From positions 1 through 43,498 of the forward strand of contig DAHUZK010000083.1 of the NCBI GenBank assembly GCA_027306605.1: a DNA stretch of 43,498 bases, read 5' to 3'. The notes under the pieces are model-generated. The model was not told the DNA's origin, searched no databases, and saw only the letters and a list, made by a program, of their open reading frames with translations. Positions 7,809 to 16,635 of this stretch are shown here, in pieces. A program made the position numbers and the translations under genes. Within the stretch, counting starts at the first letter, position 1. Every line of letters begins with the position of its first letter. The stretch is from Acidimicrobiaceae bacterium. GTDB lineage: Bacteria; Actinomycetota; Acidimicrobiia; Acidimicrobiales; RAAP-2.

Positions 7809-8252
7809 ATGACGACAAGCGGCCTGCCCAAGCCCGAGGAGGTCCTCCCGCATCGCTCTCCCTTCCTCTTCGTCACGACCGTGGATGTCGTCGAGCCCGG
7901 CGTCTCGGCGCGCGGGCGTTGGCAGCTGACGGGCGACGAGCCGTTCTTCGGTGGGCACTTCCCCGGGCGCCCGACCCTGCCGGGCGTGCTCATGGTCGAG
8001 TCCCTCGCCCAGCTGGGTGGCATCGCCGTGCTGCTGGACTCGCGTTACGCCGGGAAGCTGCCCCTCTTCGGGGGTATCGAGCGTGCCCGCTTCCGGAGGC
8101 AGGTGCTCCCGGGGGACACGCTCGACCTCGAGATCTCCATGGGCCGCCTGTCGGCCCGCGCCGGGAAGGGTCACGGGAGAGCGTCGGTCGACGGCCAGAC
8201 CGCGTGCGAGGTCGACCTGCTGTTCGTGATCGTCGACGGAGGGACCGCGTGA
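7809..8252 (+). CDS. fabZ: FabZ-type 3-hydroxyacyl-[acyl-carrier-protein] dehydratase
   Basis: A 147-aa hotdog-fold protein. It has LPHRSPFLF near the N-terminus and the family signature GGHFPGRPTLPGVLMVESLAQ split around the catalytic pair, His50 and Glu64. FabZ dehydrates 3-hydroxyacyl-ACP in the fatty-acid elongation cycle. The frame opens earlier, but the upstream part is an arginine run read out of the lysine-rich tail of the preceding gene. The ATG at 7809 follows GAGGAGACAGGG and is the natural start. It lies 16 bp after the upstream stop, and its own TGA shares one base with the next ATG (TGATG), so the three genes probably form one transcript. A related ACP-independent hotdog dehydratase cannot be excluded. 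Confidence 0.88.
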   Translation: MTTSGLPKPEEVLPHRSPFLFVTTVDVVEPGVSARGRWQLTGDEPFFGGHFPGRPTLPGVLMVESLAQLGGIAVLLDSRYAGKLPLFGGIERARFRRQVLPGDTLDLEISMGRLSARAGKGHGRASVDGQTACEVDLLFVIVDGGTA

Positions 8253-9022
8253 TGCGCCTGGCTACCTGGAACGTGAACTCACTGACGGCTCGTCTGCCCC
8301 GGGTCACCGAATGGCTCGATCTGCAGAAGCCCGACGTGCTCTGCATGCAGGAGACCAAGCAGGCCGACGAGAAGTTCCCCGAGAAGGAGTTCGCCGAGTT
8401 GGGCTACGAGTCCGCGCACTTCGGGGACGGCCGGTGGAACGGTGTCGCGCTTCTGAGCCGGATCGGGCTCGAGGACGTCATCCGGGGGTTCGGCGCGGAG
8501 GAGGACAGCCACGGCAAGCGGCTGGTCTCTGCTGTGTGTGGTGGCACCCGGGTGGTCTCGGTGTACGTCCCGAACGGGCGCGCCCTCGATCACGAGTTCT
8601 ACCGGTTCAAGCTGGCCTGGCTGGCCCGCCTGCGGAAGAAGCTCGACGAGTGGTGCCCTCCGGGTTCGTCGCTGGCCGTGTGCGGCGACTTCAACGTGGC
8701 ACCCGACGACGGAGACGTGTGGGATCCTTCGGCCTTCGTGGGTGCCACGCATGTGAGCGAACCCGAGCGTGCAGCCCTGCGCGACGTGGAGGCATGGGGC
8801 CTCGAGGACGTCTTCCGGCGGTTCAACGACGCCGGCACGTTCACGTGGTGGGACTACCGAGCCGGCGACTTCCATCAGGGACGCGGCTTGCGCATCGACC
8901 TCGTGCTGGTCAGCGAGGACCTGGCCCGTCGCGCCACGGGAGCGTTCCGTGACCGCGACGCCCGCAAGGGCAAGAAGCCGTCGGACCATGCGCCCGTCGT
9001 CGTGGATTTCGAGAACCCCTAA
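8252..9022 (+). CDS. xthA: Exodeoxyribonuclease III (AP endonuclease family)
   Basis: A 256-aa member of the ExoIII/APE1 endonuclease-exonuclease-phosphatase fold. Visible active-site motifs are WNVNSL (Asn7), QETK (Glu34, metal binding), VSVYVPNG, CGDFNVAP (catalytic Asp and Asn), WWDYRAGDFHQGRGLRIDLVL in the C-terminal half, and SDHAPVVVDF (the Asp-His pair). The family incises DNA at abasic sites and degrades duplex 3' ends in base-excision repair. The ATG at 8252 overlaps the fabZ stop by one base, and a GTG directly before it is also possible. Length is normal for the family (about 255-270 aa). Confidence 0.95.
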   Translation: MRLATWNVNSLTARLPRVTEWLDLQKPDVLCMQETKQADEKFPEKEFAELGYESAHFGDGRWNGVALLSRIGLEDVIRGFGAEEDSHGKRLVSAVCGGTRVVSVYVPNGRALDHEFYRFKLAWLARLRKKLDEWCPPGSSLAVCGDFNVAPDDGDVWDPSAFVGATHVSEPERAALRDVEAWGLEDVFRRFNDAGTFTWWDYRAGDFHQGRGLRIDLVLVSEDLARRATGAFRDRDARKGKKPSDHAPVVVDFENP

Positions 9023-9437
9023 ACCTTCCGGCCCTTCAGGCCGAGAACAGAGTTGATGAAAAGTTGACAGGGTTGCGGCCGGCGCTGCCGATCGCCCCTC
9101 GTCCGACAGCTCGACGATGCGGGGCCCGGACTTCGGGCTGACCCGGGCAGTCCATGCCTGTCCCCGGGGCTTCCAATGGGCGTCGTGACGCGGGGGTGGT
9201 GGCGTCGACCCCGGTCGGCCCAGCCGAGACCCCTCAAGGGGGAGCACTCGGCGTCCGACCAGGGTTCAAGGGATGTGAACGGGCTGCGCCCGGATGAGGA
9301 CGGTCGCAACGAGGCGAATGCGGCCGGCTCGCTTGGAGAGGGTGAGATTGGCGAAGCGACGATTTGGCGATGGTGCGCACACGGAAGGGGAACACGGTCC
9401 CTTTCCGTCTCTCGGCGCGCGCCGGTACCTCGATCGC
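9023..9437. other. Intergenic region upstream of the pilin-like operon
   Basis: About 415 bases. A short stem (CGGCC/GGCCG) just after the xthA stop may act as a terminator. TTGACA at 9064-9069 is an exact -35 consensus, but no TANNNT box lies 17 nt downstream. An imperfect GC hairpin (CCCGGGCAG paired with CTGTCCCCGGG, about 9140-9168) could sit in the 5' leader. The pilin reading frame stays open back to an ATG at 9294, but third-position GC over 9294-9437 falls to roughly 65%, unlike the gene body, so I treat that stretch as leader. I found no riboswitch match. Confidence 0.45.
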
Positions 9438-10955
9438 GTGCGACCCCGCCACGACGCTCGTTCGGACGAGGGTTTCACGCTCATAGAGCTGCTCATCGTG
9501 GTGGCGGTCATGCCGCTCGTCATCGGTGCCCTCACCGTGGGCATGCTCTCCGTCTTCTCCCTCAATACCAGCGTCACGGGCCGCCTGACCGACTCGACCG
9601 ACGCGCAACAGGTCTCCTTGGCGATGCAGAACGACGTGCAGAGCGCGACCTGTATCACCATGGACAGCTCACCGACCAGCGCCGGTCAGTGCCCGTCGGC
9701 CGGAACGTCCCAGCCGCAGATCGCTCCGTGCCTGCCGGCCGGAACGTCCCAGCGGCAGATCATGGCGGTCCTGCTCGGCAACGGCGACGAGGTCAGCTAC
9801 GCCGTCACCCAGTCGGCCACCGACAAGGGCGACAGCCTGTGGCGCTACGAGTGCCAGCCGGGCTCCACGACGCCGAGTGACACCACGGTCGTCGCGCACG
9901 ACGTGGCGAAGAACCTGGGGAACCAACCAGGCCAGGTCGACCCCTTCACCGTCACCTGCACTCCGACCGCCTCGGCCTGCGTCACGACGGCCGGAGTCGC
10001 CGCCTACCAGGTGGGCTGGGTCTCGACGGTCGGCATCACCAGCGTGACCTTCAAGGTGACGACGCCGGACACCTCGTACAGCTACCAGGTCACCGCGGTC
10101 CCGCTGGCCACGGCCAACACCGTGAACCCGTCCGTACCCGTGCAGGGAAAGACCAATTGCAACTTCGCCGTGGCATCTTCGGGCACCTACGCCCAGCAGC
10201 TGTGCTTCGTCGACTTCAGTCCCTGGAACACGCAGACCGCGGCCAGCTACACGTGCCAACCCGCCGGCGCCAACCAGCTCATGCTTCCGATGGCCCAGTC
10301 CATCGCCAACACGCCGTTCACCCTCGAGTTCTGCATGTACGTCAGCGGTTCGAATGGTCAGGGTCCGATCACCGGGAAGGGGTCGGCCCCGCCGGCCTGC
10401 GGCGTGGCCGGGCGGACCGGGTACAACGACATCGCCGCCGTCCCTCTGCCCACCTACGCCTGCCCGGGAAGCGATGGATCGGGCAGTGAGGCCTTCCTGG
10501 GCAACAACGGCTTCTACACGGGTGTCGGCGGTGATCCGGCCCTCTACGAGGTGAAGCCCGGTTCGACGGCGACCATCACGTTCGACAACATCCGACTCGT
10601 CAACTCGAACGACCAACCGGCGACCGGTTGGAAGCTGGTGACCGGGGACGCCGAGTCCACCGACCAGGGCGAGTCCATGACGTGGCAGTCGGACCAGCGG
10701 CTGGCCCTCCTGCCCAACAGCCCCGACTCGCCGATCGGCAACGCCTGCGACAGCATCGGCCAGTACGCCCCCCCGAACTACAACAGCGTCAACGGTCTGA
10801 CCGGCGTGAACACGACCCAGGTGACCTGTGCCAACTCTCCCAGCCTGAACCACACCGGGACGCCGATGCTCCAGGCGACCACGCCCAGCTCCTTGACGGT
10901 GACCATGGTGGGGGGTGGCCTCGAGGCCACGTTCCTCGGGGTGATCCTGCCGTGA
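9438..10955 (+). CDS. Prepilin-like protein, PilW-type minor pilin candidate
   Basis: The product (505 aa from GTG 9438) begins with a 12-residue leader and a class III signal: G12 followed by FTLIELLIVVAV, with the conserved Glu at +5 and a hydrophobic helix to about residue 40. Prepilin peptidase would cut after G12. The body is Thr/Ser/Gly-rich with many Cys residues, which fits an extracellular disulphide-bonded domain; no enzyme motif is seen. Size and place as first of three prepilin-like genes suggest a PilW-like minor pilin. The start is uncertain: the frame is open to ATG 9294, but codon use favours 9438. The stop overlaps the next GTG (GTGA at 10952). Confidence 0.8.
   Translation: MRPRHDARSDEGFTLIELLIVVAVMPLVIGALTVGMLSVFSLNTSVTGRLTDSTDAQQVSLAMQNDVQSATCITMDSSPTSAGQCPSAGTSQPQIAPCLPAGTSQRQIMAVLLGNGDEVSYAVTQSATDKGDSLWRYECQPGSTTPSDTTVVAHDVAKNLGNQPGQVDPFTVTCTPTASACVTTAGVAAYQVGWVSTVGITSVTFKVTTPDTSYSYQVTAVPLATANTVNPSVPVQGKTNCNFAVASSGTYAQQLCFVDFSPWNTQTAASYTCQPAGANQLMLPMAQSIANTPFTLEFCMYVSGSNGQGPITGKGSAPPACGVAGRTGYNDIAAVPLPTYACPGSDGSGSEAFLGNNGFYTGVGGDPALYEVKPGSTATITFDNIRLVNSNDQPATGWKLVTGDAESTDQGESMTWQSDQRLALLPNSPDSPIGNACDSIGQYAPPNYNSVNGLTGVNTTQVTCANSPSLNHTGTPMLQATTPSSLTVTMVGGGLEATFLGVILP
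9690..9761 (+). repeat. Imperfect 39-bp-period tandem duplication inside the PilW-like gene
   Basis: Two 33-bp copies, 9690-9722 and 9729-9761, differ at only a few positions. They encode CPSAGTSQPQI and CLPAGTSQRQI, so an extra Cys is introduced. The in-frame 13-codon period points to a recent slippage or duplication event that kept the frame. Confidence 0.85.
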
Positions 10956-13900
10956 CACGGGGCCGGGGCCGGGATCCCCTCTCCACGCAGGCTCGGTCCG
11001 GGACGATGCGGGACCGGCTCCGTCGCGGACGCGGTGACGCAGGCGACACCCTGATCGAGATCCTGATCAGCCTGACGGTTATCAGCTTCGCCGCCGTCGC
11101 CATCCTGCTGGCCTTCGCGACGTCGATCTCGGGGTCGGGCGTCCACCGCCAGACGGTGACCTTCGACACGCTGCTGCGCACCGCCTCCGCCGAGGCCACG
11201 GCGGCCTATCAGACCCTCCCGGCCAGTGCCTTCACGAACTGCTCCGCGGCCGACACCGTCAACAACGCGTCGTCACCTCCGACCTTCTCTCTTCCAGCCG
11301 GGTACTCGGCGACGATCGAGGACGTGCAGTACTGGAACGGCAGCACCTGGACGAACGCCCAGGCGCCGAGCCAGACGGTGAACGCGTGCCCCGCCCTCTC
11401 GACGCTGCAGGTCAGCACGGGACCGCAGCTGCTCACCATCCAGGTGACCTCCACCGGGAACGGGAAGACGGCGTCGACGACGACCGTGGCGAGCAACCCG
11501 ACCGCACCGGCGAGCACGCAGTCGACCTGCACGGGGCAGAAGGTGTTGCAGTGGGTGTCCCAGCCCGCCAACGGGCAAGCCGGACAGGCGTTGAGCCCGG
11601 TCCCGGAGGTGGCGATCGAAGACGCCTCGTCGGGCGCCATCTGCTCCACGGACGCCTCGTCCGTCCAGATCTCCATCGTTCCTGGCACCGGAACGGCCGG
11701 GGCTTCTCTCGGCAACTGCTCGCCGAGCCTCGGTCTCGGATCCACCACGTTCCTCAATTGCTCCATCGACACGCCGGGGAACGGCTACCAGCTCACCGCC
11801 AGCGACCCGACCGACAACCTGACGGTCCCGCAGCCCAGTGTGCCGTTCAACGTCGTGGCCGGCGTACCTGTCCGGCTGGTCTTCGCGACCTCGCCCAGCA
11901 ACGGGACCGGCGGCCTCGCCTTCCCGACCCAGCCGGTGGTCGACATCGAGGACTCGGCCGGCAACCTGGTCCAGGGAGACAGCACGGCCGTGACGCTCGC
12001 CATCGGGTCCAACCCGGGGAGCGGCACACTGGCCGGCTGCACCGACACGACGTCCAACGGCGTGGCCACGTTCAGTGGCTGCAACATCGACAAGGCCGGC
12101 TCGGGCTACACGCTGACAGCGACCGATGCCGCCGACAACCTGACCACGGCATCCGCGCCGAGCAATCCCTTCAACATCGCCGTGGGGCCGGCAGCCAAGC
12201 TGGCCTTCACGTCCTCGCCTGGGACGACGGTCGTCGGTGACCCCCTGTCCCCGCGCCCGGTGGTCGCCGTCGAAGACGCAGGTGGCAACGTGACCACTCA
12301 GAAGACCGGCGCCGTCTCGCTGGGCATCGGCTCCAACCCGGGTGGAGGCTCCTTGTCCGGGTGCAGCCAGGCCTCGAGCGGCGGGATCGTCACGTTCTCC
12401 GGGTGCAGCATCGACCGGGTCGGCAGCGGGTACACGCTCGTGGCGACGGACGGCTCGCTCTCCCAGGCCACGAGCGCACCCTTCGATGTGGCGACGGCCG
12501 CATTGACCTCGTTCTCGGTCACGCCGCAGACGACGACGCCGACCGCAGGGACGGCCTTCAAGGTCACCATCAAGGCGCTCGACCAGTCGGGATTCGTCTT
12601 CCCCAATTTCACCGGGACGCAGACGATCAACTTCAGCGGCCCGTCCAACGCGCCGAGCGGCACCGCACCCACGTACCCGGCAACGGTCAGCTTCAGCAAC
12701 GGCGTGGGCACCGCCTCGGTGACGCTCTTCGACGCCGAGTCGACCCAGCTGACGGTCTCCCAGGGTTCGGTGACGGGCACCTCGGGCACCATCACCGTCC
12801 TTCCCCGGAGCAGCGCGGCCTCCTTCACGGTCGTCAACCCGGGCATCCAGACGGCGGGGCGGCAGTTCAACGTGACGGTCGACGCCGTCGACCAGTACGG
12901 GAACACCGCCACCAGCTACGGCGGCAACAAGAGTGTGACCTTCAGCGGGCCGTCCAACGCGCCCGACGGGTCGGCACCGTCCTATCCCACAAGTCGGTCC
13001 GTGTCGTTCTCGAGCGGCCAGACCACCGTGCCGGTCACCCTGGTCGACGCTCAGACGACGGCCCTCGCCGTGAGCGACGGGTCGATCACGGGGCGGTCCA
13101 CGAGCTTCACCGTGAGCGACGCTGGTGCCGCGAGTCTCGCGGTCTCGAACCCCGGATCCCAGACCGCAGGTACTGCCTTCTCCGTCACGATCAAGGCCAC
13201 CGACCGCTACGGCAACGTCGCCAACACGTTCTCCGGACCGCAGCCCTTGCGGTTCACCGGTCCTTCCGACTCGCCCAACGGAACCGCGCCCCAGTATCCG
13301 TCCACCGTCACCTTCAGTGGCGGCACCGGCCAGGCCTCCATCACGCTGTACGCAGCCCAGACCACCACACTGACCGCGTCACAGGGCGCGGCCATCGGGT
13401 CCTCGCCGTCGTTCACGGTGAGCGGGACCGGTCAGCTCGCTTCGTTGGTCGTGACGGCTCCTGGCACGGTGACGGCCGGCACCTCGTTCGGCGTCGACCT
13501 CAGCGCCGGCGACCCGTACGGCAACACCATCACGAGCTACAGCGGATCGAAGGCAGTGACCTTCAGCGGGCCGTCCAACGCGCCGAACGGTCAGGCGCCC
13601 TCGTACCCGGCCAACGTGACCTTCGCTGCCGGCTCCGGCACGGCCACCGTGACGCTCTACGACGCCCAGGATGTGACCCTGTCCGCATCGCAAGGGGCCC
13701 TTTCGGGATCGGCCCCGCTGACGGTGTCGTCGGCTTCGGCCACCAAGCTCACCGTCGGGAACCCCGGGACCCAGACCGCAGGGACACCCTTCCCGGTGAC
13801 CGTCACCGTCTTCGACCAGTACGGCAACACGGCGACGGGCTACGCCGGTTCCAAGGCGCTCACCTTCAGCGGTCCCGCCTCCTCGCCCGGCGGTCGAGCA

Positions 13901-15028
13901 CCGACCTACCCCTCCTCCGTGGTCTTCTCCAACGGTGTGGCGAACCCGTCGATCACGCTCTACGACGCGTCCACGGCCACGACGCTGACGGTGGGGCAGG
14001 GCTCCTTGTCCGGCACGTCGAGCGTCTTCACGGTCGACCCGAGCGCCCCGAGTACCTTCAACATGTCGAACCCGTCGACCCAGTCCGTCGGGGGCCCGTT
14101 CACGGTCACCCTCACGGTGACGGATCTGTGGGGCAACGCCACCCCCGGATACGCGGGATCCAAGGTGGTCCACTTCGGCGGCCCGTCCGACGCGCCGAAC
14201 GGCCAGGCCCCGAGTTACCCGTCCAGCGTCACCTTCAGCAGCGGGACCGGCACGGCATCGATCACGCTCTACGACGCCCAATCGACGTTCATCACGGCCA
14301 CGGAGGGCCTGGTGACGGGTGCCACCAATTCCTTCAGTGTGAACCCGGGGAGTGCCGTGTCGCTCGACGTGTCGGCCCCGTCGTCCGCCAGCGCCGGGTC
14401 GGCTTTCGACGAGCAGCTCACGGCGGTCGACCGGTACGGAAACATCGCCACCGGGTACAGCGGCCAGAAGAGTGTCAGCTTCAGCGGTCCGGGGGCGGCG
14501 CCGAACGGGACGAGCCCGACCTACCCCAGCAGCGTCACGTTCTCCAACGGGTTCGGAACGGCCTCGATCACCCTGTTCGACGCGCAGGACACGACCCTGA
14601 CCGCCACCGCGAGCCCCCTCTCGGGCACCTCGGGGACCTTCACGGTCAGCGGTGGATCGTGGGCCAGCCTGAACGTGACCAACGTCTCGCAGCAACCGAC
14701 GCCTGCACTGACGTGCAGCGGGCCGGTCGGGACCCTGACGACCTGTTCGTCGACTGGTGAGCCGAGCAGCGCGCAGACCCTGACCGCGTCACTGCAACTC
14801 GTCGACGACTATGGCAACCCCACGACCAACACGACGGGCTGGTACATCACGGTGGCCGTCAGCCGATCCGGATACCGCACGACGTACATGCGCATCGCGC
14901 CCAACGAGTCCACCACGATGACGCAGTTCACCTTCACCCGCGGCGACGCCGGCGGTGGGAGCTCGACAGCGACCATGAACGCCAGGGTCTACTACTCGAC
15001 CCGCCTGACCATCACCCTGTCGACATGA
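10952..15028 (+). CDS. Giant PilV-like prepilin with ten Ig-like repeats
   Basis: GTG at 10952 (GTGA overlap with the preceding stop) gives 1358 aa; ATG 11006 is an alternative start. Residues 1-31 are a basic leader. G31 is followed by DTLIEILISLTVI, a prepilin-type signal with Glu at +5 and a membrane helix to about 60. About 61-190 are a pilin-like globular part. About 191-516 hold three type A repeats (about 105-110 aa) marked by VEDAGGN, a GSNPGSG-type turn and paired Cys. About 517-1234 hold seven type B repeats (about 102 aa) with DQYGN, FSGPSNAPNG, APSYP, ITLYDAQ and LSGTSGTFTV. The C-terminal ~120 aa differ and keep DDYGNP. Such Ig-like arrays are typical of adhesins and extended surface stalks. 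Usual PilV/GspI proteins are under 250 aa, so this is a strong enlargement. Assembly into a pilus is inferred. Confidence 0.85.
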   Translation: MTRGRGRDPLSTQARSGTMRDRLRRGRGDAGDTLIEILISLTVISFAAVAILLAFATSISGSGVHRQTVTFDTLLRTASAEATAAYQTLPASAFTNCSAADTVNNASSPPTFSLPAGYSATIEDVQYWNGSTWTNAQAPSQTVNACPALSTLQVSTGPQLLTIQVTSTGNGKTASTTTVASNPTAPASTQSTCTGQKVLQWVSQPANGQAGQALSPVPEVAIEDASSGAICSTDASSVQISIVPGTGTAGASLGNCSPSLGLGSTTFLNCSIDTPGNGYQLTASDPTDNLTVPQPSVPFNVVAGVPVRLVFATSPSNGTGGLAFPTQPVVDIEDSAGNLVQGDSTAVTLAIGSNPGSGTLAGCTDTTSNGVATFSGCNIDKAGSGYTLTATDAADNLTTASAPSNPFNIAVGPAAKLAFTSSPGTTVVGDPLSPRPVVAVEDAGGNVTTQKTGAVSLGIGSNPGGGSLSGCSQASSGGIVTFSGCSIDRVGSGYTLVATDGSLSQATSAPFDVATAALTSFSVTPQTTTPTAGTAFKVTIKALDQSGFVFPNFTGTQTINFSGPSNAPSGTAPTYPATVSFSNGVGTASVTLFDAESTQLTVSQGSVTGTSGTITVLPRSSAASFTVVNPGIQTAGRQFNVTVDAVDQYGNTATSYGGNKSVTFSGPSNAPDGSAPSYPTSRSVSFSSGQTTVPVTLVDAQTTALAVSDGSITGRSTSFTVSDAGAASLAVSNPGSQTAGTAFSVTIKATDRYGNVANTFSGPQPLRFTGPSDSPNGTAPQYPSTVTFSGGTGQASITLYAAQTTTLTASQGAAIGSSPSFTVSGTGQLASLVVTAPGTVTAGTSFGVDLSAGDPYGNTITSYSGSKAVTFSGPSNAPNGQAPSYPANVTFAAGSGTATVTLYDAQDVTLSASQGALSGSAPLTVSSASATKLTVGNPGTQTAGTPFPVTVTVFDQYGNTATGYAGSKALTFSGPASSPGGRAPTYPSSVVFSNGVANPSITLYDASTATTLTVGQGSLSGTSSVFTVDPSAPSTFNMSNPSTQSVGGPFTVTLTVTDLWGNATPGYAGSKVVHFGGPSDAPNGQAPSYPSSVTFSSGTGTASITLYDAQSTFITATEGLVTGATNSFSVNPGSAVSLDVSAPSSASAGSAFDEQLTAVDRYGNIATGYSGQKSVSFSGPGAAPNGTSPTYPSSVTFSNGFGTASITLFDAQDTTLTATASPLSGTSGTFTVSGGSWASLNVTNVSQQPTPALTCSGPVGTLTTCSSTGEPSSAQTLTASLQLVDDYGNPTTNTTGWYITVAVSRSGYRTTYMRIAPNESTTMTQFTFTRGDAGGGSSTATMNARVYYSTRLTITLST
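11524..12498 (+). repeat. Three type A Ig-like coding repeats (about 325 bp each)
   Basis: Copies start near 11524, 11863 and 12190. Each encodes a segment with a VxDIEDSAGN-type strand, a GSNPGSGTL turn, two Cys around the middle (for example GCTDTTSNGVATFSGC) and a GSGYTLTATD ending. The paired Cys suggests one disulphide per domain. The copies have clearly diverged. Confidence 0.8.
12502..14655 (+). repeat. Seven type B Ig-like coding repeats (about 306 bp each)
   Basis: Copies begin near 12502, 12816, 13128, 13435, 13738, 14045 and 14350. Each encodes TAGTxFxVTxxAxDQYGN, then FSGPSNAPNG, APSYPSSVTFSxG, ASITLYDAQ and a closing SGTSxxFTV. They lack the Cys pair of type A. A 29-bp stretch is identical in copy 2 (12935-12963) and copy 4 (13556-13584), which indicates recent exchange or expansion among copies. 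Confidence 0.88.
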
Positions 15029-16635
15029 CGATCCGGAAGAGGCGAGCAGACATGATGCCGAATGGAGAACAGGGGAAGAGGCGGCGCGACGCCACGGACG
15101 GACCGCGCCCGCGGCGCCGTCGCGACGACGCCGGCGCGACGCTCCTGTTGGCCCTGCTGTTCTTGGGCGCCATCGGGACCATCGTGGGCGCGATCGCCTC
15201 GTGGACCTCGAACGACCTGAGCAACACCCTGGTCTTCCAGCAGCAGGCCAACGTGCAGTCCGCGCTCTCGATGGCCACGAACGTCGCCATCCAGAGCATC
15301 CGCTACACCCCGCTGATCGGTGCGGGCCAGACGCTGAACGCAAGCCCGCCTTCGGCGTGTTTCGGCACCCAGAGCACGTCGGAAGTGGCATGGACGAATC
15401 CCCGGAACGGCGACGTCACGTGGGTGGACGTCTGGTGCTCGACGTTGTGGGACCCGACGAGCGCTCAGACGCGTACGGTCACGGTTTCGGCCTGCCTGAA
15501 CGACAACGGCGCGGACACCGCGGTGAACTGCGGCAAGGCTCCGGGGTTGCAGACCCAGGTCGTCTTCGACGACTACTCGGCCGCCAATCCCACACAGAGC
15601 CTTGCGCCGTGCAAGCCGCCACCGACGGGCACCTGCGGCAGCGGCATGACGATCAACAGCTCGTTGCGCGGACTCCCCGCGCCCGACGTGACAGGCCTGT
15701 CGAGCACCGCGGGACCGGTCACAGGCGGGGGGACCTTGACGGTCTCCGGGGACAACTTCGCGCTCACCGGCACCAAGGTGTACTTCTTGTTGAAGCCGAG
15801 CTCGAGCTCGAGCTCGCAGAACCTGGTTCTCCAGGGCACGTCGGTCGACGTCACCTCGGCGCAGGCGCTGCAGGTGAAGATCCCGGCCGCCACCACGACC
15901 GGTACCTACAACGTGGTGGTCAGCAGCTCGAGCGGGACCAGCCCGACCGGCCCACAGACGCAGTACGTCTACAACCCGGTGGTACCGGTGGTCTCGAGCG
16001 CGACCACGACCGTGACGACGGCAACCGGGGGCCCGACCGGCTCCGCAGCCGGTGGGACCACGGTGACGATCACCGGGAGCGGCTTCTTGGACTCCACCTT
16101 CGGTGACCTGACGACCGTCGAGTTCGTCGACACGGCGACCGACACCGTCTACACCGCGCCGACCAACACCGTCTCATTGGTGACCGGAAGCGGCATCGCC
16201 CCGGGAACCGAGCTCACAGTGGCGACCCCCGCGGTCTCGACGACGGACACCACCTTCTGGGTCGTGGTGGTGACTGCGCCGGGTGGCTCCAGCGGCACGG
16301 CCAACGCGCCGGTCTTCACCTACCAGCCGCTCCTGCCGCTGGTGGCCAGCGCCGTGACGACCAGCGGTGGTGCGACCCAGGGCGGGTCGGGCACGCAGGT
16401 GACGCTCACCGGTGTGGGGTTCATCTCGGGGAACACGACGGTCCAGTTGGTGCCGACGTCCGGCGGCTTTAGGAACCAGACGTTGACCCTGACCAGCGTC
16501 TCGGTGAGCGGGTCGACGTCCCTGACGGCCACCTTGCCCTCAGGGGGCAGGGCGAACTCGACGTACTACGTCGTGGCGACGACACCGAGTGGAACGAGCG
16601 GTACGAACAGCGCCCCCGTCTTCACCTACACCTGA
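15025..16635 (+). CDS. PilX-like membrane-anchored protein with IPT/TIG repeats
   Basis: The ATG at 15025 overlaps the previous stop (ATGA); ATG 15052, behind a purine-rich stretch, is an alternative. The 536-aa product has a long basic N-terminus (to about residue 35), one hydrophobic helix (GATLLLALLFLGAIGTIVGAIASW, split here by description at about 36-60) and a pilin-like region with spaced Cys (to about 215). Three IPT/TIG-type Ig domains follow, at about 219-315, 317-433 and 434-536, each with a GGTxVTITGxGF-type strand. No Glu+5 prepilin motif is present, as is usual for PilX-like proteins. As third gene of the overlapping trio it fits the pilW-pilV-pilX order of minor-pilin operons. 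No assembly ATPase or prepilin peptidase gene is in the window. Confidence 0.82.
   Translation: MTIRKRRADMMPNGEQGKRRRDATDGPRPRRRRDDAGATLLLALLFLGAIGTIVGAIASWTSNDLSNTLVFQQQANVQSALSMATNVAIQSIRYTPLIGAGQTLNASPPSACFGTQSTSEVAWTNPRNGDVTWVDVWCSTLWDPTSAQTRTVTVSACLNDNGADTAVNCGKAPGLQTQVVFDDYSAANPTQSLAPCKPPPTGTCGSGMTINSSLRGLPAPDVTGLSSTAGPVTGGGTLTVSGDNFALTGTKVYFLLKPSSSSSSQNLVLQGTSVDVTSAQALQVKIPAATTTGTYNVVVSSSSGTSPTGPQTQYVYNPVVPVVSSATTTVTTATGGPTGSAAGGTTVTITGSGFLDSTFGDLTTVEFVDTATDTVYTAPTNTVSLVTGSGIAPGTELTVATPAVSTTDTTFWVVVVTAPGGSSGTANAPVFTYQPLLPLVASAVTTSGGATQGGSGTQVTLTGVGFISGNTTVQLVPTSGGFRNQTLTLTSVSVSGSTSLTATLPSGGRANSTYYVVATTPSGTSGTNSAPVFTYT

Follow-up and report, generated by a model that had tools for sequence, protein, structure and literature searches.

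Three adjacent module-bearing predicted minor prepilins in an Acidimicrobiaceae genome form a candidate type IV pilus tip complex

Modular pilins, in which a pilin module carries an additional domain, are already known in considerable variety; more than 1,200 proteins in 264 architectures have been counted, one of them with 12 copies of a motif (PMC8179133). Tip complexes are described as initiating the pilus fibre, as being capped by a subunit that lacks Glu5, and as being able to display grafted effectors (PMC9934059, PMC10191384). In diderm type IVa pili the tip adhesin is a separate large protein, PilC/PilY1, which is absent in monoderms (PMC9934059). The closest described monoderm case is Streptococcus sanguinis, where the minor pilins PilA, PilB and PilC, with grafted adhesive modules (vWA, and immunoglobulin-like (Ig-like) plus lectin), are proposed to form a complex at the tip of the type IV pilus (PMC8179133, PMC9934059). 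Here we analyze a window of 43,498 nucleotides, contig DAHUZK010000083.1 (C75) of assembly GCA_027306605.1 from a probably uncultured Acidimicrobiaceae bacterium (3.36 Mb, 84 contigs, 81% complete), in which three plus-strand genes, termed W, V and X, encode a comparable set of proteins. Effector presentation by monoderm pili outside the streptococci is, to our knowledge, little known.

We read W, V and X as module-bearing predicted minor prepilins that most likely, with a probability of roughly 0.7, make up the tip complex that nucleates a type IV pilus, W being J-like, V I-like and X the capping, K-like subunit. As the original prediction for this DNA had claimed, neighboring genes share four bases, GTGA at 10952-10955 between W and V and ATGA at 15025-15028 between V and X. 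The features are as follows.

9348..10955, plus strand: gene W, TTG start, predicted modular minor prepilin of PilW/GspJ type (7994 candidates scored, 568 of them homologues at E<=0.001)
9474..10115, plus strand: predicted mature pilin module of W, GspJ-like fold (residues 13-226 of P0001)
10176..10952, plus strand: C-terminal module of W, CshA_NR2/polymer-adhesin-domain-like (residues 247-505)
10952..15028, plus strand: gene V, predicted PilV-like modular minor prepilin, 1358 aa
11045..11533, plus strand: predicted mature pilin module of V (residues 32-194; GDTLIE motif)
11534..12493, plus strand: Ig-like domains A1-A3 of V (residues 195-514)
12494..14653, plus strand: Ig-like domains B1-B7 of V (residues 515-1234)
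14654..15025, plus strand: divergent C-terminal domain of V (residues 1235-1358; can be aligned with its counterparts in P0293 and P0325)
15025..16635, plus strand: gene X, PilX/GspK-like, no Glu5, 536 aa from ATG 15025
15136..15669, plus strand: predicted mature pilin-like module of X (residues 38-215)
15682..16632, plus strand: three IPT/TIG domains of X (residues about 220-319, 320-436 and 437-536)
8252-9022: exodeoxyribonuclease-type gene preceding the trio (PF03372)

A prepilin is recognized by a hydrophilic leader that ends in Gly and is followed by about 20 hydrophobic residues with Glu5. W and V both carry such a class III signal peptide (DEG/FTLIE and DAG/DTLIE, respectively), and X has the motif DAG/ATLLL. 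The prepilin-like N-termini originally predicted for all three genes are therefore present as far as the Gly-type motif is concerned, but Glu5 is found in W and V and not in X. These features are conserved. In the W family, Gly(-1) occupies 37 of 45 rows and Glu5 39 of 45, the remaining rows being gaps. The G-x-T-L-x-E element occurs in all 18 V frames of relative loci, an unbiased count because the frames were located by homology and position and not by the motif; an alignment of V (A4) has Glu5 in 22 of 22 rows, yet 12 of those rows had been picked by the motif. In the X family, 33 of 36 rows have Gly(-1), the other three being gaps, and 34 have Leu at +5 (2 gaps), a lack of Glu5 that would be expected of a K subunit, and Cys112, 138, 157 and 169 are invariant in the pilin-like module. 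Prepilin profiles, proposed as a check on the N-termini, recognize that of W, at 22.2 bits against the TIGR02532 cut-off of 16.3, but not that of V, which scores 15.2 bits against PF07963 (cut-off 21.2), or that of X, which matches no prepilin profile. Surveys that rely on PF07963 may thus miss both V and X.

GTG 9438, the originally predicted start of W, gives 505 aa. The alternative, TTG 9348, is preceded by GGAGAGG at 9335-9341, and the N-terminus of AK-R-x-G-E/D type that it provides is present in 17 of 119 W homologues; on this sequence evidence W very probably begins at TTG 9348, which replaces the earlier assignment. Database versions of W differ in start site (window 9348-9510). The record for the W studied here, P0004 (481 aa), starts inside the N-terminal helix (MPLVIG), so that the prepilin leader is lost from that annotation. 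V runs from GTG 10952, an alternative ATG at 11006 giving 1340 aa, and X has an alternative ATG at 15052.

The model of W consists of a long helix and a sheet, and its top two matches are minor pseudopilin structures of the Xcp system; the GspJ-type structure matched is presumably XcpW, to judge from the residue range of 5bw0_C. These matches, and those to polymer adhesin domains (PADs) below, come from a second look (VIA) and not from Foldseek, which gave nothing convincing with the W model (of 841 rows, the two that reached E<=0.001 had low probability). A sequence-profile search of the PDB found pilin N-termini alone with W and nothing with the X head. V is laid out alike in its model, as a 59-residue helix (residues 29-87) followed by strands, at a moderate confidence that is lower than for W, and no solved pilin is among the structural matches listed for the V head. 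The pilin-like packing expected by the original prediction is seen in W, and V may share it.

Beyond the pilin heads, each protein carries additional domains. The second module of W (residues 247-505) appears PAD-like in the model, matching Sgo0707 N1, GbpC, SspB and PrgB in structure comparison. This W scores 18.1 bits against CshA_NR2 (PF18651; cut-off 24), while 26 of 45 W homologues match PF18651 at E<=0.001; the CshA_NR2 structure 5L2D is absent among the structural matches listed for W. The domains of V match the stalk domains of invasin, intimin and FdeC in structure comparison. Type B domains are mutually 42-56% identical in protein and 57-63% in DNA, type A domains are 39-47% identical in protein, and each domain matches its best sister domain at 67-99 bits by BLAST. 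The length of 1358 aa and the three type A and seven type B repeats that had been claimed for V are all seen, but a count of ten domains omits the divergent eleventh at the C-terminus. The three IPT/TIG repeats claimed for the third gene are confirmed by PF01833 (42.5 bits, cut-off 20.9, two stretches passing individually), by the family alignment, in which all three are visible, and by the match of the family profile to the IPT region of human MET (positions 180-473, E 1.2e-10). The borders of these domains were set by eye at the invariant Pro220, 321 and 438.

A modular pilin, as defined by Raynaud et al. (2021), combines a pilin module with a domain that is not specific to pilus biology, and W (PAD-like), V (Ig-like) and X (TIG) each show this combination. 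The idea of a type IV pilus tip complex with a stalk fused to a minor pilin is supported, although the modules sit on all three subunits and not on V alone. The trio resembles PilA/PilB/PilC of S. sanguinis in this respect; there, however, the I-like PilA has neither a module nor Glu5 and only the other two subunits are modular, whereas here all three are modular and X is the Glu5-less subunit. The modules differ as well, being PAD-like, an Ig stalk and TIG, with that of V the longest. The likeness to HIJK and GspHIJK (PMC10191384, PMC6211770) lies in the match of W to a GspJ-type structure and in the presence of three adjacent minor pilins, one without Glu5, so that both a J subunit and a Glu5-less cap are found; V as I and X as K we infer by elimination and from the missing Glu5. 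Unlike GspI and GspJ, which are non-modular (PMC8179133), each subunit here has about 260-1160 extra residues. The structural matches of W 247-505, and PF18651 in its homologues, relate that module to the CshA_NR2 and polymer adhesin domains of PMC10952558. In the putative adhesins described there the domain is joined to stalk repeats and a C-terminal anchor, whereas its partner in W is a minor pilin; the words "pilin" and "pilus" do not occur in the available text of that survey. No paper describing the present combination was found among those judged by title and start of abstract, though the architecture list of PMC8179133 may contain such a pilin, and the available part of PMC3244431 makes no mention of "Acidimicrobi". 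Modular pilins being already known, this trio is a variation on them and not new in kind.

The assembly genes that the original prediction proposed to look for elsewhere in the genome are present, as pilB-, pilC-, pilD-, pilT- and pilA-type genes on contigs other than that of the window. Contig C40 reads pilB-pilC-(about 0.4 kb)-pilA-pilT-DUF429 plus pilD, and the trio is not there; in the congener G002, which has pilC-pilA-pilT, the trio is likewise on a separate contig. PilT passes the TIGR01420 cut-off at C40 (436 vs 319 bits) and at a further locus on C18. PilB matches TIGR02538 best, below its equivalog cut-off, and the C40 PilC has GspF/PilC models as best matches, also below cut-offs, while the C18 PilC passes PF00482. 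PilD was identified by PF06750/PF01478 and the pilins by PF07963. In this 81% complete genome PilM has four weak matches, none over cut-off, and PilO has none. The C40 PilB-type ATPase (L017:7305-8993) has an N-terminal MshE-related domain (54.6 vs 38 bits) that binds cyclic di-GMP (c-di-GMP), so extension of this pilus may be under c-di-GMP control.

The window trio probably belongs to the C40 pilus, and the arrangement in relatives is consistent with this. In a locus of the same genus (L043) the order is pilB-pilC-W-V-X-pilA-pilT-DUF429, followed by pilD on the opposite strand, and a locus of the same family (L049) has the identical series from pilB to pilT, with pilD. We counted neighborhoods in 20 distinct relative loci, leaving out the genome's own loci, three duplicates, L047 (pilB-pilC-W), L055 (prepilin-like genes seen in gene calls only) and L066 from Leucobacter, where the match is confined to the second half of W. 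W adjoins V in 19 of the 20. Thirteen contain pilB and/or pilC, two contain only other pil genes, and five contain none, one of these being a 5.9 kb contig. A match to the X head is seen in eight; elsewhere the contig ends first or nothing scored. The order is variable, with V before W in L048, pilA before V and W in L053, and X on the opposite strand in L058. Among the named loci that have a W relative, eleven in all, ten are from Acidimicrobiaceae isolates with palsa_ or bog_ names and one is from Leucobacter. One isolate, bog_793, has two W-V sets on two contigs (L061, L058), and one of its V proteins has just two Ig domains.

Other readings of the same genes have to be weighed against a pilus tip. 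The N-terminal helices could be mere membrane anchors, in which case V (and W and X) would be surface fibres of type II membrane topology, equipped with a borrowed prepilin-like leader but not part of a pilus. V is indeed much larger than usual pilins and falls short of the prepilin profile, and similar Ig arrays are common in proteins without the motif; of the 920 homologues of the V N-terminal region 120 were listed, and 13 of these carry it, our own included. An anchor, however, would require neither the G-x-T-L-x-E element, invariant in frames that were not chosen by it, nor the company of pilB and/or pilC at 13 of 20 loci, and the pseudopilin-type fold of W also argues against it; we consider this reading unlikely.

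If the pilus served DNA uptake, the modules of the trio would be expected to bind DNA at the tip of a competence pilus. No ComEC (PF03772) match is present in the genome, itself only 81% complete, and the W module matches PADs of other ligands (Sgo0707, GbpC, SspB) at higher Z, which together make this quite improbable. The Xcp pseudopilins that W matches best, along with a PilC-type protein that scores best against GspF, though below cut-off, would suit a pseudopilus like that of type II secretion, in which the modules at the tip capture exoproteins that are to be exported. Against this, the PilT-family ATPase that passes its curated cut-off sits with pilA in an operon, and Ig stalks and PADs are typical of surface adhesins; we regard a pseudopilus as very improbable.

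With the tip complex as the preferred reading, we turn to how its modules vary. A comparison of repeat number among relatives had been proposed, and the number differs, A/B-type domains varying from 0 to 18 across 31 V sequences: 25 have 1 to 18 and six have none. These counts are lower bounds, as several loci stop at contig ends or gaps, and P0262, P0275 and L041 have their last 300 residues in common, so that not all rows are independent. Type B domains are confined to the V studied here, P0293 (3A+7B) and P0325 (3A+14B), and a profile from the C-terminal domain of these three found it in none of the other 28. The A/B domains of our V and P0293 correspond one to one (10 of 10 same-numbered best matches), indicating that the array was inherited domain by domain. 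In P0325 the B set has doubled to 14, and its younger duplicates are up to 81% identical in protein. Like Periscope proteins, V has tandem folded domains whose number varies among relatives and would set the reach, but Periscope repeats are highly identical in DNA (PMC8201768) and the type B repeats are not. Active recombinational length change of this kind was dropped for this V in view of the age of the B repeats (57-63% in DNA) and their mapping onto P0293.

Other modules occur in the family and order: V has FN3-type domains in G021 and Big_3_5 in G013, and W has FN3 in G055. The V proteins of G050, G038 and G048 are plain and, if counting begins 25 residues ahead of the motif, have <200 residues. 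The W-type minor pilin of G048 (L053:5069-9814; a weak BLAST match) has ~1580 aa with nine Big_3_5 stretches, and here the stalk would sit on the J-like and not the I-like subunit. Modules are swapped or lengthened while the pilin heads remain recognizable, a pattern compatible with selection on binding by the tip.

The same genome contains a second minor-pilin trio on the minus strand of contig C23 (L018:5664-12065), in the order V2-W2-X2. V2, of about 950 aa, has cysteine/tryptophan repeats and is propeller-like, resembling a beta-propeller in a pattern judged by eye. V2, W2 and X2 have no Pfam match, and V2 no NCBIfam match. A c-di-GMP-I riboswitch at L018:11483-11557 (minus strand; 52.6 bits, cut-off 35) ends ~90 bases before the likely V2 start. 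An FtsH-like AAA/M41 peptidase gene on the same contig has a c-di-GMP-II-GAG riboswitch upstream (L018:3646-3729, plus strand; 58.5 bits). C18 (L016) is a second type IV pilus locus with a pilD-like gene (A24_N domain alone matched), pilB (979 aa, two MshEN stretches), a PilT-family ATPase (568 aa, containing MshEN), pilC and pilA. Five of 13 genomes (the present one, G000, and G005-G008) have a second, distant pilC that is 28-32% identical to that of C40. X2 is found in three of the 13 (G000, G005, G006), all among those five, and in none of the other eight. V2 has a match of nearly whole length in G005 and partial ones in G006; its other matches hit the repeat part only. We gave less weight to the possibility that this trio is another tip of the C40 pilus because X2 co-occurs with the second pilC. 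Judging from these gene distributions, it more likely serves a second pilus type.

Rfam searches of the window trio (one chance-level snoRNA match), of 15 relative loci (L041 and L056 on one contig) and of L016, L017 and L043 gave nothing over the gathering score, and a promoter/terminator scan gave nothing exceeding shuffles. The trio is close to its neighbors in codon use (G+C at third positions 0.90-0.91 vs 0.91-0.92), so recent foreign origin is not indicated. C75 may be wrongly binned into this genome. Its gene that we take to encode a D-Ala-D-Ala ligase-type protein has its closest matches in congeners G003 (74%) and G002 (64%), and matches of just 37% and 33% in congeners G001 and G004.

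Taken as a tip complex, the trio suggests the following course. A PilD-type peptidase would cut each leader after Gly, and, by analogy with PilABC and HIJK systems, the W, V and X pilin helices would assemble within the membrane to initiate the fibre, X being uppermost. PilB and PilC would then add major pilin below, which would leave the modules at the distal tip. Ig-like domains are about 4 nm long, and the stalk of V, with about 11 of them, would reach roughly 40 nm if extended and hold its distinct C-terminal domain at the end, displayed together with the PAD-type ligand-binding domain of W and the TIG domains of X. After binding, PilT would retract the fibre, pulling the cell or its target. 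Tip location and adhesion are predictions, and our guess at the ligand would be polymers in peat soil, either polysaccharide or protein.

A broader view, which we offer tentatively and hold at somewhat less than even odds, is that the conserved I/J/K nucleating trio has in these actinobacteria turned into a three-armed platform for exchangeable effectors. Each core minor pilin would be a socket for Ig stalks (1-18 domains), FN3/Big_3_5 arrays, PAD adhesins, TIG domains or nothing, taking over the role of PilY1 with no separate adhesin at the tip, and a second such trio, with its propeller-like module and c-di-GMP riboswitch, would be kept for another pilus. If the tip complex is real, these bacteria would have a long, exchangeable gripping device at the tip of a retractable type IV pilus. 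The swappable modules and the wide range of stalk lengths would then amount to a natural experiment on the cargo load that a tip complex tolerates, and would supply ready-made chimeras for probing tip order and reach.

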